22,685 nt of DNA from a virus, in IMG/VR virus record IMGVR_UViG_3300025120_000608, positions 1 through 22,685 of that record. The stretch is one strand, 5' to 3'. The stretch's first letter is position 1. Every line of letters starts with the position of its first letter. Of the stretch, positions 2 to 21,146 are shown in pieces. Below the pieces are notes generated by a model. The model was not told the origin of the DNA. It made no database searches and was given only the letters and a program-made list of their open reading frames with translations. Position numbers and translations under genes: made by a program.

Positions 2-1030
2 TTACAAGAACCACAGAACATTACCATAGTAAGAAGAACTGTACCTTCACTTAAAAGAAGTGTAATAAAAGATTTCAAAGAGATAATGCAAGAGTTAGGT
101 ATATGGAGTAATGAGTCATACAACATCTCTGATAGGGTTTACTCGTTCTCTAATGGAGCATTAATTAGTTTTGTTAATACAGATGATGCAGAGAAATTAA
201 GAGGTGTTAAATCAAATATTTTATTTATAGATGAAGCATCGGAACAACACGAAGAAGCTTACTTCCAACTATCCATTCGTACAACAGGTGAGATAATCTT
301 AGCATTCAACCCAACTGTTTCACCTTACCATTGGTTAAGGAATATGGATGATGCAGAACAATTTAGAACTACATACAAAAACAATCCTTATCTACCTGAT
401 GCAATGATTAAGGAGATAGAAGCATTAGAACATAAGAACCCAAAGTATTATAAGATATATGGTTTAGGAGAATATGCACCGAATGAAAAGGCAGTATTTA
501 ATAACTTCCAAATACTAGAAGATTTCCCTACACACGAGTTAATAGGATATGGAATGGACTTTGGTTTTTCACAAGACCCAACTACTTTGATTGCAGTACA
601 TAAACATCACGATATGTTGTATTGTAGAGAACTGATGTATGAGAGAGGTTTAACAACTAATGATATAGTAAGAAGGCTACAGAGTTTAAACATCGGTAAA
701 ACAGAGATATGGGCCGATAGTGCAGAGCCACGATTGATAGAAGAAATCTATCGTTCTGGTTTTAATATTAAACCTGTCAAGAAAGGACCTGATAGTATAA
801 AATTTGGAATCTCTGTATTACAGAACTTTGGTTTAGTAGTAGATAATAAATCAACACACTTAATAGATGAGTTGTATGGATATGAATATGCAACAGATAA
901 GAATGGAGTAGTGTTGGATAAACCACAAGGGTTCAATGACCATTGTATAGATGCACTAAGATATCTAGCAATGAGTAGGTTGAGTTTAAAACAAGCAAAT
1001 AAAGGTAAATACACATTAAGTTTTAAGTAA
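2..1030 (+). CDS. terL: Terminase large subunit, 5'-truncated by the window edge
   Basis: This is the DNA-packaging motor: an ATPase that pumps DNA through the portal plus a nuclease that cuts the concatemer. The frame is open from base 2, and the residues before the ATG at 86 (including VRRTVPSLKRSV) match the terminase fold, so the true start lies upstream and 86 is an internal Met. Counting from that Met, Walker B is SNILFIDEASE at residues 43-53 (D49, E50), followed by the LAFNPT coupling motif near 72-77. The C-terminal RNase H-like nuclease carries the acidic residues D158 (YGMDFGFSQDPTT), D211 (IWADSAEP) and D285/D289 (FNDHCIDALRYL). The Walker A loop is outside the window. The architecture is that of PBSX-type (Terminase_3) proteins. 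The stop codon overlaps the next ATG (TAATG). Confidence 0.95.
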   Translation, partial: LQEPQNITIVRRTVPSLKRSVIKDFKEIMQELGIWSNESYNISDRVYSFSNGALISFVNTDDAEKLRGVKSNILFIDEASEQHEEAYFQLSIRTTGEIILAFNPTVSPYHWLRNMDDAEQFRTTYKNNPYLPDAMIKEIEALEHKNPKYYKIYGLGEYAPNEKAVFNNFQILEDFPTHELIGYGMDFGFSQDPTTLIAVHKHHDMLYCRELMYERGLTTNDIVRRLQSLNIGKTEIWADSAEPRLIEEIYRSGFNIKPVKKGPDSIKFGISVLQNFGLVVDNKSTHLIDELYGYEYATDKNGVVLDKPQGFNDHCIDALRYLAMSRLSLKQANKGKYTLSFK

Positions 1031-1188: not shown

Positions 1189-1516
1189 ACTACCTGAAGA
1201 ATATAAGGATAAGAATAAATACGAGATATATACACATCTTGAACAAGTTGCTACTTATGCTCACAATCTTAAAGAAGAAGTAACTAATCTTAAAGCAGAG
1301 ATTGTATTAAGAGATTCTCAATTACAAAAACAAAGAGCAGATATTCTTAAATTAAAATCGTTGGTAGGACATAAGAACATAGAGATACAAGACTTAAAGT
1401 TAGAAGCAGAAGATGTAATAGATATAACAGAAACAAAGATACCTAACTTTCTACCAGCATCAGTTAAGTTTCACGAAGTAACACAAGAATTCCAAGACAA
1501 ACCAATTAACAAATGA
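1166..1516 (+). CDS. Coiled-coil protein of unknown function, 116 aa
   Basis: Residues about 20-85 form a long charged helix with Leu/Ile at heptad spacing (LEQVATYAHNLKEEVTNLKA and on through SQLQKQRADILKLKSLV), so a coiled coil is very likely. The N-terminus is short and mixed, and the C-terminal 30 residues look extended (IPNFLPASVKFHEV). There is no signal peptide or membrane segment. It overlaps the following tail chaperone by ATGA (1513-1516), suggesting coupled translation and perhaps a joint role, but no family is recognised. The start at 1166 is the only good ATG and lies inside the preceding small gene. Confidence 0.7.
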   Translation: MATIVEVKLPEEYKDKNKYEIYTHLEQVATYAHNLKEEVTNLKAEIVLRDSQLQKQRADILKLKSLVGHKNIEIQDLKLEAEDVIDITETKIPNFLPASVKFHEVTQEFQDKPINK

Positions 1517-2160
1517 AAAAAGAAATAGAGATAGTAGTTCCAAAAGATTATTCAGCAGTATCATTAAAGAAGTATTTAAAGATACAAGAAGATTTAGAAA
1601 CCTATAAAGATGATAAGGAAGCACAAGATGCGTTCTTATTATATAACATCATAGGTTTAACACCTGAGGTAATTATAAAATTAGATAGTGATACAATAAC
1701 AAGTATTAAAAAAGATTTATATGCGTTCTTAGGTAAGACAGATTTTGAATTACAAAAGTTTGTTACTATTGATGGAGTAAAATATGGATTTGAACCTAAC
1801 CTATCTAAGATGGCTTATGGTGCTTATTTAGATTTATCTTCATATCAAAATATTGCATTAGATAAGAATTGGGCAAGTATAATGAATATCTTATACAGAC
1901 CTGTAACTAAAACAAAAGGAGCTCTATATAGTATAGAACCTTATAGTAGTGAGAAACAAGATAACACAGATAAGTGGTTAGATATTAATATGGATATTCA
2001 CTTCGGTTGTTTTTTTTTCTTCAATCGTATCTTAAAGGAATTAACGAAAGATACCCTGAAATCTTTGAGGGAGGCAGCGTTGGAGGACCAGGCAGTGAAT
2101 CCGCACACCAAGCGAATTTTGCAAGAAAGTGGAGCTCTTATCAATCGATTGTTGTCTTAG
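1513..2160 (+). CDS. Putative tail assembly chaperone, short (G-like) form
   Basis: A 215-aa cytoplasmic protein proposed to be the G-like tail chaperone that holds the tape measure while the tube assembles around it. The N-terminal half (KEIEIVVPKDYSAVSLKKYL, then LTPEVIIKLDSDTITSIKKDL) resembles the N-terminal part of chaperones I recall from Bacteroidota phages. After about residue 166 the gene crosses a run of nine T (2010-2018), read as Cys-Phe-Phe-Phe-Phe, and continues in frame for another 46 residues to a TAG at 2158. A second open frame in -1 overlaps this end and carries a conserved chaperone-like domain. The family call is from memory of the pattern. The tape measure is unusually far away, about 17 kb downstream. 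Confidence 0.65.
   Translation: MKKEIEIVVPKDYSAVSLKKYLKIQEDLETYKDDKEAQDAFLLYNIIGLTPEVIIKLDSDTITSIKKDLYAFLGKTDFELQKFVTIDGVKYGFEPNLSKMAYGAYLDLSSYQNIALDKNWASIMNILYRPVTKTKGALYSIEPYSSEKQDNTDKWLDINMDIHFGCFFFFNRILKELTKDTLKSLREAALEDQAVNPHTKRILQESGALINRLLS
2010..2019 (+). other. Putative -1 ribosomal frameshift (slippery) site, T9C
   Basis: Nine consecutive T followed by C. In the frame of the upstream gene the codons are TGT TTT TTT TTC TTC, so both T TTT TTT and T TTT TTC fit the X XXY YYZ slippery pattern with perfect re-pairing after a -1 shift. A weak imperfect stem (CCCTGAAA at 2054 against TTTGAGGG ending at 2071, one mismatch) lies about 35 nt downstream; whether it stimulates slipping is unknown. 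Transcriptional slippage on the T run is an alternative mechanism with the same result. Confidence 0.65.
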
Positions 2161-2297
2161 CTAATGAAGATTTATTAAAGTTTGATGAAGTAGTTAAAAG
2201 ACCTTTAGAAGAATGTTTGTTAAACCTTTGTTACAGAGCAGATAAGGTACAGTTAGAAAACTTAATACATAGAGCTGCTATGAAAAAGTATAAATAG
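2010..2297 (+). CDS. C-terminal (T-like) extension of the tail chaperone, reached by -1 frameshift
   Basis: This frame has no ATG near its start; only a TTG at 2007 could serve, and that lacks a ribosome site. It is open in -1 relative to the 1513 gene. Shifting on the T9 run (slip on TTT TTC, then reading CTT at 2019) would give one protein of about 261 aa instead of 215. The extension holds a clear conserved block: FARKWSSYQSIVVLANEDLL followed by KFDEVVKRPLEECLLNLCYR, which matches the F-x-x-KW-x-x-Y / LA-x-x-D / FDEV pattern I recall from the second part of such chaperones. This layout parallels lambda G and GT. From 2019 to 2160 both frames are open. Confidence 0.7.
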   Translation, partial: FFFLQSYLKGINERYPEIFEGGSVGGPGSESAHQANFARKWSSYQSIVVLANEDLLKFDEVVKRPLEECLLNLCYRADKVQLENLIHRAAMKKYK

Positions 2298-10923: not shown

Positions 10924-11823
10924 ATGAGTACAGCATCACAAAATACAGCACCTCAACAGATTACTAAGGATAGTGGAGTAAACTTTTCTTTGTATTATAA
11001 TACTTTAAATTTCTTCAAGAACATTATGAAGAATCATCCAAGTATTGCAAAGGTAACACAAGGAGATTTATTTGGTATAGATACAACACAATTTCCTCAG
11101 TATCCTATTGGTAATGTAATGATACAAAACGCAAACTTTACAAACAATACAACTGATTATAGAATTCAGTTAATCGTTGCTGACAAATCTAAATTGTTAA
11201 ATGATACTGATATACCAAATAGAAAAGATAATAAACAAGAAGTTCCCTTTTATGGGACTAACGATATGGTAGATATTCATTCTAACACAATGAGTATCTT
11301 AAATGATTTAACATCCTATGTACAGAAAGGAAATTATGGAATGGAGGTGAATGGTACAGTCAATTGTGTTCCATTTGCTGATAGGTTCAATAATGGACTG
11401 GTTGGTTGGTCAGCAGAGTTTGACCTAACTGTTCACAATGATAGAAATCGTTGCCTTTTTTTTTTGAGTCCGCCTAGCGGTTCTTACTTTAAAATAGAGG
11501 ATTGTGAAACAGGAGATTTGTTTAATGCAGTACTAGAAACAACAGGTTCAATAGGACAAGTATTTGCAACAAAATATATACCTGGTCCTAGAGGATTTTT
11601 AACATCGTATGATAATATAAGATGTTTTGAAATAAAAGAAGAAATAAATGATAGAGATGATTATAACTTTTTTAACTTACCAGTTCTTGAAATACCATAC
11701 GAGGATTTTGAAACTTGTGAAGCTTGTGAGTTATGGACATCACCAAAAGTTTGGGGAACAACACCTGAACGATATGATAATAACAAAATAGATGATGCAC
11801 TTAGACAGTGGATACATACATAA
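10924..11823 (+). CDS. Tail-terminator-like neck protein with C-terminal extension, 299 aa
   Basis: Residues about 25-180 resemble tail terminator/completion proteins: a helix LYYNTLNFFKNIMKNHPSIA, then KVTQGDLFGIDTTQFPQYPI, a central DYRIQLIVADKS strand, and a closing GLVGWSAEFDLTVHNDRNRC. Such proteins usually end about here. In this gene the frame runs through ten T (11456-11465) into a further 115 residues with a distinct domain: SYFKIEDCETGDLFNAVLE at its start, IRCFEIKEEI in the middle and YEDFETCEACELW at its end, a Cys-containing pattern (C...C...CEAC) seen in phage structural modules. A -1 slip on the T run would instead stop at 11475-11477 and give a 184-aa protein. The terminator assignment is from pattern memory. 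Confidence 0.6.
   Translation: MSTASQNTAPQQITKDSGVNFSLYYNTLNFFKNIMKNHPSIAKVTQGDLFGIDTTQFPQYPIGNVMIQNANFTNNTTDYRIQLIVADKSKLLNDTDIPNRKDNKQEVPFYGTNDMVDIHSNTMSILNDLTSYVQKGNYGMEVNGTVNCVPFADRFNNGLVGWSAEFDLTVHNDRNRCLFFLSPPSGSYFKIEDCETGDLFNAVLETTGSIGQVFATKYIPGPRGFLTSYDNIRCFEIKEEINDRDDYNFFNLPVLEIPYEDFETCEACELWTSPKVWGTTPERYDNNKIDDALRQWIHT
11456..11465 (+). other. T10 run: candidate slippage site producing a short form
   Basis: Ten T in frame as CTT TTT TTT TTG. A -1 shift reads TTT GAG TCC GCC TAG and stops at 11477; a +1 shift reads TGA at once. A short perfect hairpin, CCGC-CTA-GCGG (11470-11480), follows 4 nt later and contains the -1 stop codon. The codons CCG and AGC used here are uncommon in the surrounding genes, where CCT or CCA and AGT dominate. 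Confidence 0.45.
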
Positions 11824-19452: not shown

Positions 19453-19587
19453 ATGATAACGAATATAATAGACCTTTTACAACAAAATGATTACTACAAA
19501 GTTAGTGATGATGTTGATATTGCTAAAGGTAAATATGAAATACCAAGTAATTGGAGTGGAGTAAAGAATCTCTTTAAAAGAATGTAA
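19453..19587 (+). CDS. Small protein before the tape measure, 44 aa
   Basis: MITNIIDLLQQNDYYKVSDD then VDIAKGKYEIPSNWSGVKNL and FKRM. It starts right after the 17-bp repeat, and its stop overlaps the tape-measure ATG by one base (TAATG), so it is well placed for coupled translation. It has an N-terminal amphipathic helix and a short polar remainder; no family is recognised. Its size and placement are compatible with a tape-measure accessory protein, but that is a guess. Without it there would be a 155-nt gap between the tail-tip gene and the tape measure, long for this region. Confidence 0.55.
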   Translation: MITNIIDLLQQNDYYKVSDDVDIAKGKYEIPSNWSGVKNLFKRM

Positions 19588-21146
19588 TGGCTGAAAATAC
19601 AGTAACATATAAGGCGGTAATAGATGTAGAAACAGAAGGAGCAAAGAATATTGATTTGCTTAACAAAACTATATCCACATCTATTGGTGAGTTTGATAAC
19701 CTTAATGAAGCGATATCTAAAACACAAGATACGTTAGGAAAGATTGACCCTAAATCTAAAGAGTTTAAGGAACTATCAAAAGAACTATCTAACTTAAAAG
19801 ATGATTTAAAAGATACAGAAATAGCATCTGTTAGATTTACAGAAGCGTTAGGAGCTCAACCAGGTGTTATTGGATTGGTAGGACAATCAATGGAAGGATT
19901 AAGAGGAACATTAAAAGTGTTTATGGCAAATCCTATCATTGCTGTTGTTACTGCTATTGCTGGTGCTTTTCTTTTAATGAGAGAATCATTAACTAAAACA
20001 TCAGAAGGTCAAGAAACTTTAAATAGAATATCGGAAGCATTTGGTAAGATAATGGGACCTATATTTGCACTAGTAGAAAAAGTAGCATTACCTATCTTTG
20101 AAAAGTTTGCTGATTTATTATCATTAGTAGCAACAGGATTTAGTAAGTTCGCTACATTCTTGGGTATATCTGGTGATAAGATAGATGAAGCAAGTAGAGC
20201 ATCATCAGAAACATTACAAACTGCATTTGAAGAAGAACAAGCTAGACAAGAAGAATTAACTAAGAAGGCAGAAGAAGAAACACAGAAAAGAATAGATGCT
20301 GCACAAAGAGAAGCAGATGAGATAAAAAGAATAAAAGAACTTGCAGCTCAAATACAATTAGAAGCTGAGTTATCTTTGTTAAGTGAAAGAGATAGACAGT
20401 TAATAGAAAGAGAAACAAGATTTAATGAAGAGTTAGCAATTCTTAAAAAAGCTGGTTATGATAATTTTACTGCACTAGAATCAGAATACTATGGTGATTT
20501 ATTAGAGATTAGAAGAAACTATGATAACCTATCTAGTGTATCTGAAATAGAAACAGCACAGAGAACAGGTGCAGCTAAGATTACTACTCAAGCAGATTTC
20601 TCTGAACTATCACTTAATTTACAAGAACAAACATCAGAAGTATCTGTTGGAATGCAAGAAGATGAAGAAGAAGCTAAACTGATGGTTATTAGTTCTGCTC
20701 TATCATCTGTTGCTCAAATGGTAGGAGAGAATACTATTGCTGGTAAAGCTCTAGCAGTTGCATCTGCATCTATAAACACATATCTTGGTGCTACTAAAGC
20801 ACTTGCTACATATCCACCACCATTTGGAGCTATTGCTGCAGGTGTTGTTATTGCAGGTGGTTTATTACAAGTAAGAAAGATTATAGCTACCAAAGTACCA
20901 AAACCACCAGGAACTAACCTTAGAGGTGCTAGTGGTGGCGGAGGAGGAGGTGGAGCTTCTGTTCCAGCAACAACAGTTCCACAAATACAAACTGCTCAAG
21001 CATTAGAAACTGATACAGGTTCACAGATATCAGAAACTATTGCAGCATCATCACAAAGACCTGTACAAGCATACGTTGTATCAACACAAGTTAGTTCAAC
21101 ACAGGCATTAGATAGAAGAACGAACTCAGCAGCTTCGTTTGGATAA
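19587..21146 (+). CDS. Tape measure protein, 519 aa
   Basis: Sets tail length and is threaded through the tail tube. It is helical almost throughout: an N-terminal coiled coil (about residues 20-80, with FKELSKELSNLKDDLKDTEI), a hydrophobic segment at about 111-131 (FMANPIIAVVTAIAGAFLLM), a long charged coiled coil at about 200-350 (RQEELTKKAEEETQKRIDAA), and a C-terminal hydrophobic block near 385-433 (YPPPFGAIAAGVVIAGGLLQ) typical of tape measures. A run of seven glycines sits at about 451-457, followed by a Thr/Gln-rich tail. Using the usual rule of about 0.15 nm per residue, 519 aa predicts a tail of very roughly 80 nm. Its chaperone gene is not adjacent but about 17 kb upstream. Confidence 0.85.
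   Translation: MAENTVTYKAVIDVETEGAKNIDLLNKTISTSIGEFDNLNEAISKTQDTLGKIDPKSKEFKELSKELSNLKDDLKDTEIASVRFTEALGAQPGVIGLVGQSMEGLRGTLKVFMANPIIAVVTAIAGAFLLMRESLTKTSEGQETLNRISEAFGKIMGPIFALVEKVALPIFEKFADLLSLVATGFSKFATFLGISGDKIDEASRASSETLQTAFEEEQARQEELTKKAEEETQKRIDAAQREADEIKRIKELAAQIQLEAELSLLSERDRQLIERETRFNEELAILKKAGYDNFTALESEYYGDLLEIRRNYDNLSSVSEIETAQRTGAAKITTQADFSELSLNLQEQTSEVSVGMQEDEEEAKLMVISSALSSVAQMVGENTIAGKALAVASASINTYLGATKALATYPPPFGAIAAGVVIAGGLLQVRKIIATKVPKPPGTNLRGASGGGGGGGASVPATTVPQIQTAQALETDTGSQISETIAASSQRPVQAYVVSTQVSSTQALDRRTNSAASFG

Follow-up and report, generated by a model that had tools for sequence, protein, structure and literature searches.

Comparison of homologous viral loci indicates that the gene at positions 1513-2297 of this phage record is a real and conserved frame-switch gene, in which a run of nine T leads from frame 0 into the -1 frame and the stretch behind the run is coded in both. 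We propose that this single gene would give rise to two proteins with a common N-terminus of 169 residues: unshifted reading would yield a 215-aa form, and a predicted 261-aa form would carry the C-terminal domain of the -1 frame. In the mechanism that we consider, RNA polymerase would slip on the T run and add U, mostly a single one, and a fraction of the mRNAs would then encode the long form. Taken as a whole, a reading that combines a two-protein gene, polymerase slippage, roles like those of gpG/gpGT or P2 E/E' and a second run of the same kind is one towards which we lean with some reserve.

Organization of the locus

The window, i.e. the whole stretch of DNA analysed, is a virus record of 22,685 bases with terminase, portal, capsid-like, protease and tape-measure-like genes. 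Its features discussed here are:

2-1030, plus strand: terminase large subunit gene (terL), given as context; the frameshift gene lies shortly 3' of terL family-wide
1513-2160, plus strand: frame-0 ORF of 215 aa, putative short form, tail-chaperone-like (PHROG 32199, unknown function; AlphaFold2 pLDDT 86)
2010-2018, plus strand: T9 slip run, present as T9 or T10 in 135/135 loci
2010-2016 and 2013-2019, plus strand: heptamers T_TTT_TTT and T_TTT_TTC, in phase within the slip run, the second using C2019
2019-2160, plus strand: dual-coding stretch, made of the final 46-47 frame-0 codons and the start of the -1 extension (synonymous suppression, conserved openness, frame-0 conservation)
2019-2297, plus strand: -1 frame extension of 92 aa, which with the common N-terminus would form the predicted 261-aa protein
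10924-11823, plus strand: second gene with a conserved slip run
11456-11465, plus strand: T10 run of the second gene, CTT TTT TTT TTG
19587-21146, plus strand: tape-measure-like protein (phrog_3336, E 1.7e-8), about 17 kb from the frameshift gene

The original prediction had described T9C at 2010-2019, two frames overlapping over 2019-2160 and a -1 frame running on to 2297 with no ATG of its own, and the sequence agrees on each point. The open stretch of the -1 frame spans 1989-2297 and has no ATG at its beginning. Two small ORFs separate terL from the ORF at 1513-2160. Within the -1 extension, a domain with the pattern W..Y..I..LA..D..K...V...PLE.CL is conserved among the homologs.

Conservation of the T run

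Searching IMG/VR with the frame-0 protein gave 17 loci. An alignment-based query gave 513 relatives, 80 of which were retained, and two divergent members used as queries gave 63 and 17 further loci. The loci examined number 135 (70 non-redundant), with amino-acid identity down to about 25%. The virus family carrying the run is found in marine and freshwater habitats and consists of viruses of bacteria. The Nonlabens phages P12024S and P12024L are its cultured members; their host is one of the Bacteroidetes (Nonlabens/Persicivirga), and both have T9 and the -1 extension.

At the level of the sequence, an open -1 extension stands behind the T run in 135/135 loci. The run is T9 in 60 and T10 in 10 of the 70 non-redundant loci, with no other length, and it falls in codon phase 0 in 19 of them, in phase 1 in 32 and in phase 2 in 19. 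Outside the frameshift gene, only four T runs of nine or more occur in the 482 kb that these 70 loci represent. The 135 loci hold neither fused homologs nor alternative slip motifs, and the two observations that the original prediction had named as contrary to it, a fused frame lacking the run and an error in the T count, are absent from them. These alignments show that the homologs conserve the frame change at the T run and also keep the run itself as T9 or T10.

One could also suppose that the T run arose by sequencing error or serves phase variation, a single frame being the true gene. Homopolymers are indeed both error-prone and mutable, and one relative, L203, carries in its second gene a T9 in place of the usual T10. 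Against this stand the fixation of 9-10 T in 135 loci, the T10 kept by the second gene in 80/81 sequences and the selection acting on both frames, and we regard this explanation as hardly credible. A simple sequencing error in the T count is ruled out by independent metagenome contigs (L001-L003), which are 96-97% identical to the window and have T9 too.

Two further observations were made in this collection. In one clade of relatives, a T9 run, TTGTTTTTTTTTGATGAT, is shared upstream of the frameshift gene (at 1362 in L124, L139, L146 and L154, at 114 in L151). The contig IMGVR_UViG_3300043395_001957 (62,622 bases) carries two differing copies of the frameshift gene (L072 and L079) about 33 kb apart, and possibly consists of two phage genomes joined together.

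Dual coding in the overlap

It had been predicted that the -1 change is conserved and that the long overlap is selected in both frames, and the homolog alignments bear this out. The tests were carried out in the window's clade (L001-L094), the two most distant clades being left out. When the -1 protein was held fixed and its codons were resampled by codon usage, frame 0 was expected to remain open over a mean of 8.5 codons; 50.6 were observed in 41 non-redundant sequences, with a mean P of 0.003 per sequence over all 41 tested.

Synonymous divergence, whose comparison among homologous loci had been suggested as a check, is lowered over the overlap. Scored at identical residues, where saturation corresponds to 0.49-0.50, pairs below 60% identity show a synonymous difference of 0.45 ahead of the run, of 0.48 past the frame-0 stop and of 0.28 for the -1 frame within the overlap; a dip is found in every identity class. 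In distant pairs, the frame-0 tail has a BLOSUM score of 1.64, against 0.77 +/- 0.03 expected when conditioned on the -1 protein and an open frame 0, which argues that the residues of frame 0, and not its openness alone, are under selection. The sequences being related, the P values are to be taken as guides; the stronger argument comes from the distant pairs, which are near synonymous saturation outside the overlap.

The base composition agrees with this picture. The G+C counts given in the original prediction, 55/120 for 2041-2160 and 35/120 for 2161-2280, are exact, and only 96 of the 22566 segments of 120 nt in the record reach the G+C of 2041-2160. Averaged over 68 non-redundant homologs, G+C climbs from 33% ahead of the run to 39% in the overlap and falls to 30% behind it. 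The jump had been taken as something that dual coding could cause, and both the synonymous drop and the codon positions fit with this: in the overlap, third-base G+C of frame 0 goes up from 28% to 50%, since each such base also opens a -1 codon, in line with what dual coding predicts. The rise in G+C alone was left out as evidence and replaced by the codon-position and synonymous-site tests. Altogether, these comparisons indicate that both frames of 2019-2160 are under selection and that the dual coding is real.

Mechanism of the frame change

What is constant across the three codon phases is the full run of 9-10 T and not a heptamer. In the 70 runs, 50 positions are free to change with no loss of a residue or of a T_TTT_TT[TC] motif, and every one of them is T (under codon usage, log10 P is about -11 if the sequences are treated as independent). 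Such dispensable T include, in the window's clade, the third base of the TGT that precedes the run and, in phase-1 members, the run's eighth T. RNA folding over up to 75 nt downstream of the run revealed no excess in 53 homologs (mean z +0.13 and +0.09, pseudoknots being outside the model), on which ground a hairpin stimulator was dismissed. Shine-Dalgarno-like motifs are found upstream of the run in just 16/70. In bacteria, slippage usually takes place on nine T or A, and many bacterial genomes show evident selection against slippage at this length (PMC1088944).

The original prediction had favoured a ribosomal shift of the lambda type, and this does not turn out to be the better fit, given a whole run conserved in every phase and no downstream structure. 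Ribosomal -1 frameshifting on T_TTT_TTC or T_TTT_TTT would make the long form as in P2 E/E' and lambda G/GT, and the resulting 261-aa fusion protein would be identical to that from the polymerase route. An in-phase heptamer lies within the run of every homolog, any T9 holding one T_TTT_TTT, and tandem heptamers might also favour a long run; moreover, ribosomal shifting is what known tail chaperones use, as P2 E does at TTTTTTG (PMC5009743). However, 6-7 slippery bases are used in P2 and lambda against 9-10 here in every codon phase, wobble bases that the heptamer does not need are fixed as T, neither downstream structure nor Shine-Dalgarno motifs are conserved, and a T10 run of like character exists in another gene of the same genomes. 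We thus see ribosomal frameshifting as a serious candidate and a rather less probable one. Because the run is constant, its wobble bases are fixed, stimulators are lacking and a second gene has its own run, we favour polymerase slippage, which is probably what changes the frame at the T run.

It could also be imagined that ribosomes re-initiate at the frame-0 stop or close to it and translate the -1 domain as a protein of its own, with no frame switching. P12024S, with TAATG at this stop and ORF39 annotated from there, could be read in this way, and 20/68 homologs have an ATG in the -1 frame somewhere from the run up to 30 nt beyond the stop. Such an ATG is nevertheless missing from 48/68, the window among them, and re-initiation leaves unexplained that the conserved -1 reading starts directly at the T run, which makes this explanation very improbable.

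A second gene with a T10 run

Only one other T run of nine or more is found in the window, the T10 at 11456-11465. An exact T10 is present in 80/81 second-gene sequences with a readable site, the window included; a further second-gene locus (L261) ends before the motif and is outside the 81. In 28 non-redundant sequences, with identity down to 53%, the two Phe codons inside the T10 are TTT in 28/28, preceded by CTT in 27 sequences and by ATT in one; at the six other invariant Phe columns of this gene, TTT and TTC are mixed. The last T of the run forms with the next two bases a stop in the +1 frame in 77/77 full-length genes (TGA, 11465-11467 in the window), and the -1 frame closes within 2-6 codons after the run. 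The +1 stop may follow from the conserved residues alone, and we give it little weight.

Residues 23-175 of the second-gene protein match stand-alone proteins of about 150 aa (PHROG 30964; hhalign probability 99.4%, E 1e-21), whose gene comes after the frameshift gene in distant relatives. These stand-alone proteins end with a Cys equivalent to the one just before the T10 run, and the residues past 181 are an added C-terminal region. As the shared domain ends at the run, slippage would give a protein of the ancestral length, the unslipped form being about 120 residues longer. Judging by contig names, both runs are on the same contig in at least nine cases (e.g. L024/L207 and L025/L218), and the same genome probably uses the T10 at 11456 to produce a full-length protein of the neck/tail region (299 aa) and a truncated one of about 180 aa.

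A parallel can be found in dnaX of Thermus thermophilus, where an in-frame run (A9) also has nearby stops in both other frames and slippage leads to a truncated form (PMC1088944, PMC5009743). The two differ in gene and function, and slippage at the second gene is a prediction.

An odd case is L203 (2524-2532), which has T9 in place of T10, a frame 0 that stops right after it and the extension in the -1 frame. The unslipped product may there be the short form, the reverse of the situation in its relatives, or the locus may reflect an assembly error.

Identity and possible role of the proteins

In the AlphaFold2 model of the frame-0 protein, the run maps near the start of a long helix (160-191), which reaches on into the frame-0 tail. 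Foldseek retrieved 36 viral proteins at E < 0.001, mostly with no function assigned, and a weak match (E 0.019) to a protein named tail assembly chaperone. PF10109 Phage_TAC_7, the family of P2 E and Mu 41, is matched by 4/43 members (best E 0.00095), below the curated cut-offs where scores were seen and over a stretch within residues 14-72 in two members; phrog_166 'tail protein' is matched by 14/43. The window protein had no match in Pfam, and hhalign against the single sequences of lambda G, P2 E and Mu gp41 gave nothing. The PDB held no relative by sequence and, by fold, generic helix pairs only, with no nameable known fold. The model of the -1 domain is helical (pLDDT 70) and found in BFVD weak matches only, to phage proteins with no function assigned; searches with the domain gave no match in the phage collection and no confirmed relatives in bacterial genomes.

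The frameshift gene is always close behind terL, and in distant relatives it stands before neck-type genes. It is about 17 kb away from the tape-measure-like gene in the window and about 7 kb in P12024S.

The assignment as a tail chaperone, as made in the original prediction, thus stands in part. The two-product anatomy speaks for it; the profile matches are sub-threshold, the fold match is weak and the position of the gene is unusual. It is possible, if somewhat doubtful, that the two products are real and that the protein is no tail chaperone but has another role, such as that of a neck or packaging protein linked to terL, an alternative that concerns the role and not the mechanism. The conserved place just after terL and before neck-type genes would suit such a function, as would the lack of a Pfam match for the window protein and of a solved relative by sequence. 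On the other side are the two-product anatomy itself, the sub-threshold matches to Phage_TAC_7 and phrog_166 together with the weak fold match to a named tail assembly chaperone, and the occurrence of the gene in phages with tape-measure-like genes. On these leads, the best reading is that of a tail-assembly-chaperone-like gene following the logic of G/GT or E/E'. The roles of the proteins would then be like those of gpG/gpGT or P2 E/E': the shared part and the short tail would hold the tape measure, and the -1 domain would recruit tail-tube subunits.

A protein alike by predicted fold is gp10 of Flavobacterium phage 6H (L175:10352-10927), encoded on the strand of the tape-measure gene and upstream of it. 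Downstream of gp10 the frames are disrupted, no simple -1 shift restores them, and a shift could not be read there.

Comparison with known systems

The tail chaperones lambda G/GT and P2 E/E' use a -1 ribosomal frameshift (PMC5009743). The window gene resembles both in its common N-terminus followed by a -1 C-terminal extension and in its place in the structural region of a tailed phage, and P2 also in having a T-rich slip site. It differs from them in several respects. About 5-8 codons follow the slip in P2 E (TTTTTTG) and lambda G (GGGAAAG), whereas 46 frame-0 codons are left after the run in the window and 15-83 (usually 39-57) in the family, with dual selection in the window's clade; the contrast first drawn between some 46 residues here and the late shift of lambda G is therefore a family norm. 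The entire T9/T10 run and not a heptamer is conserved, the gene follows terL whereas theirs sits between the tube and tape-measure genes, and clear sequence homology was not found. The gene would thus work like G/GT on paper, and we do not file it as a proven member of that group.

Closer in mechanism could be the genes of bacterial secretion systems in which a homopolymer run gives two lengths of an assembly protein, i.e. tssM (A11) and the Shigella genes mxiE, spa13, spa33 and mxiA. In tssM of Citrobacter rodentium, part of a phage-tail-like machine, slippage occurs at the A11 and both forms and their ratio are needed, while in a Yersinia relative slippage leads to the opposite product (PMC4256274). 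In such bacterial systems, the product of slippage may be the long form or the short one (PMC4256274, PMC5009743). It is proven in tssM and the Shigella genes and inferred here, in a phage family. In the literature search, which covered a partial collection, no report of transcriptional slippage in phage tail genes was found.

In the cultured phages P12024S and P12024L, the two frames are annotated as two hypothetical proteins, ORF38 and ORF39 (PHROG 32199 and 38404), in a record that makes no mention of a frameshift. In P12024S (L018:12001-12695), the frame-0 stop overlaps a -1-frame ATG, and re-initiation would be possible there too.

Biological significance

The fixed length of the run and the presence of a second one add interest beyond the frame-switch genes already known. 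Recoding in tail chaperones is regarded as ribosomal. We tentatively suggest, as an idea that could well prove wrong, that this phage family sets the ratio of two tail-chaperone forms by polymerase slippage on a fixed T9/T10, with dual-coded C-termini that are under selection, and that it treats a second structural gene likewise. If this is true, the two-form logic of tail assembly can run at the level of the transcript, and sequence alone could point to such genes, which annotations currently split into separate hypothetical ORFs. The overlap itself offers a clean natural case of dual coding, in which selection can be measured in both frames.
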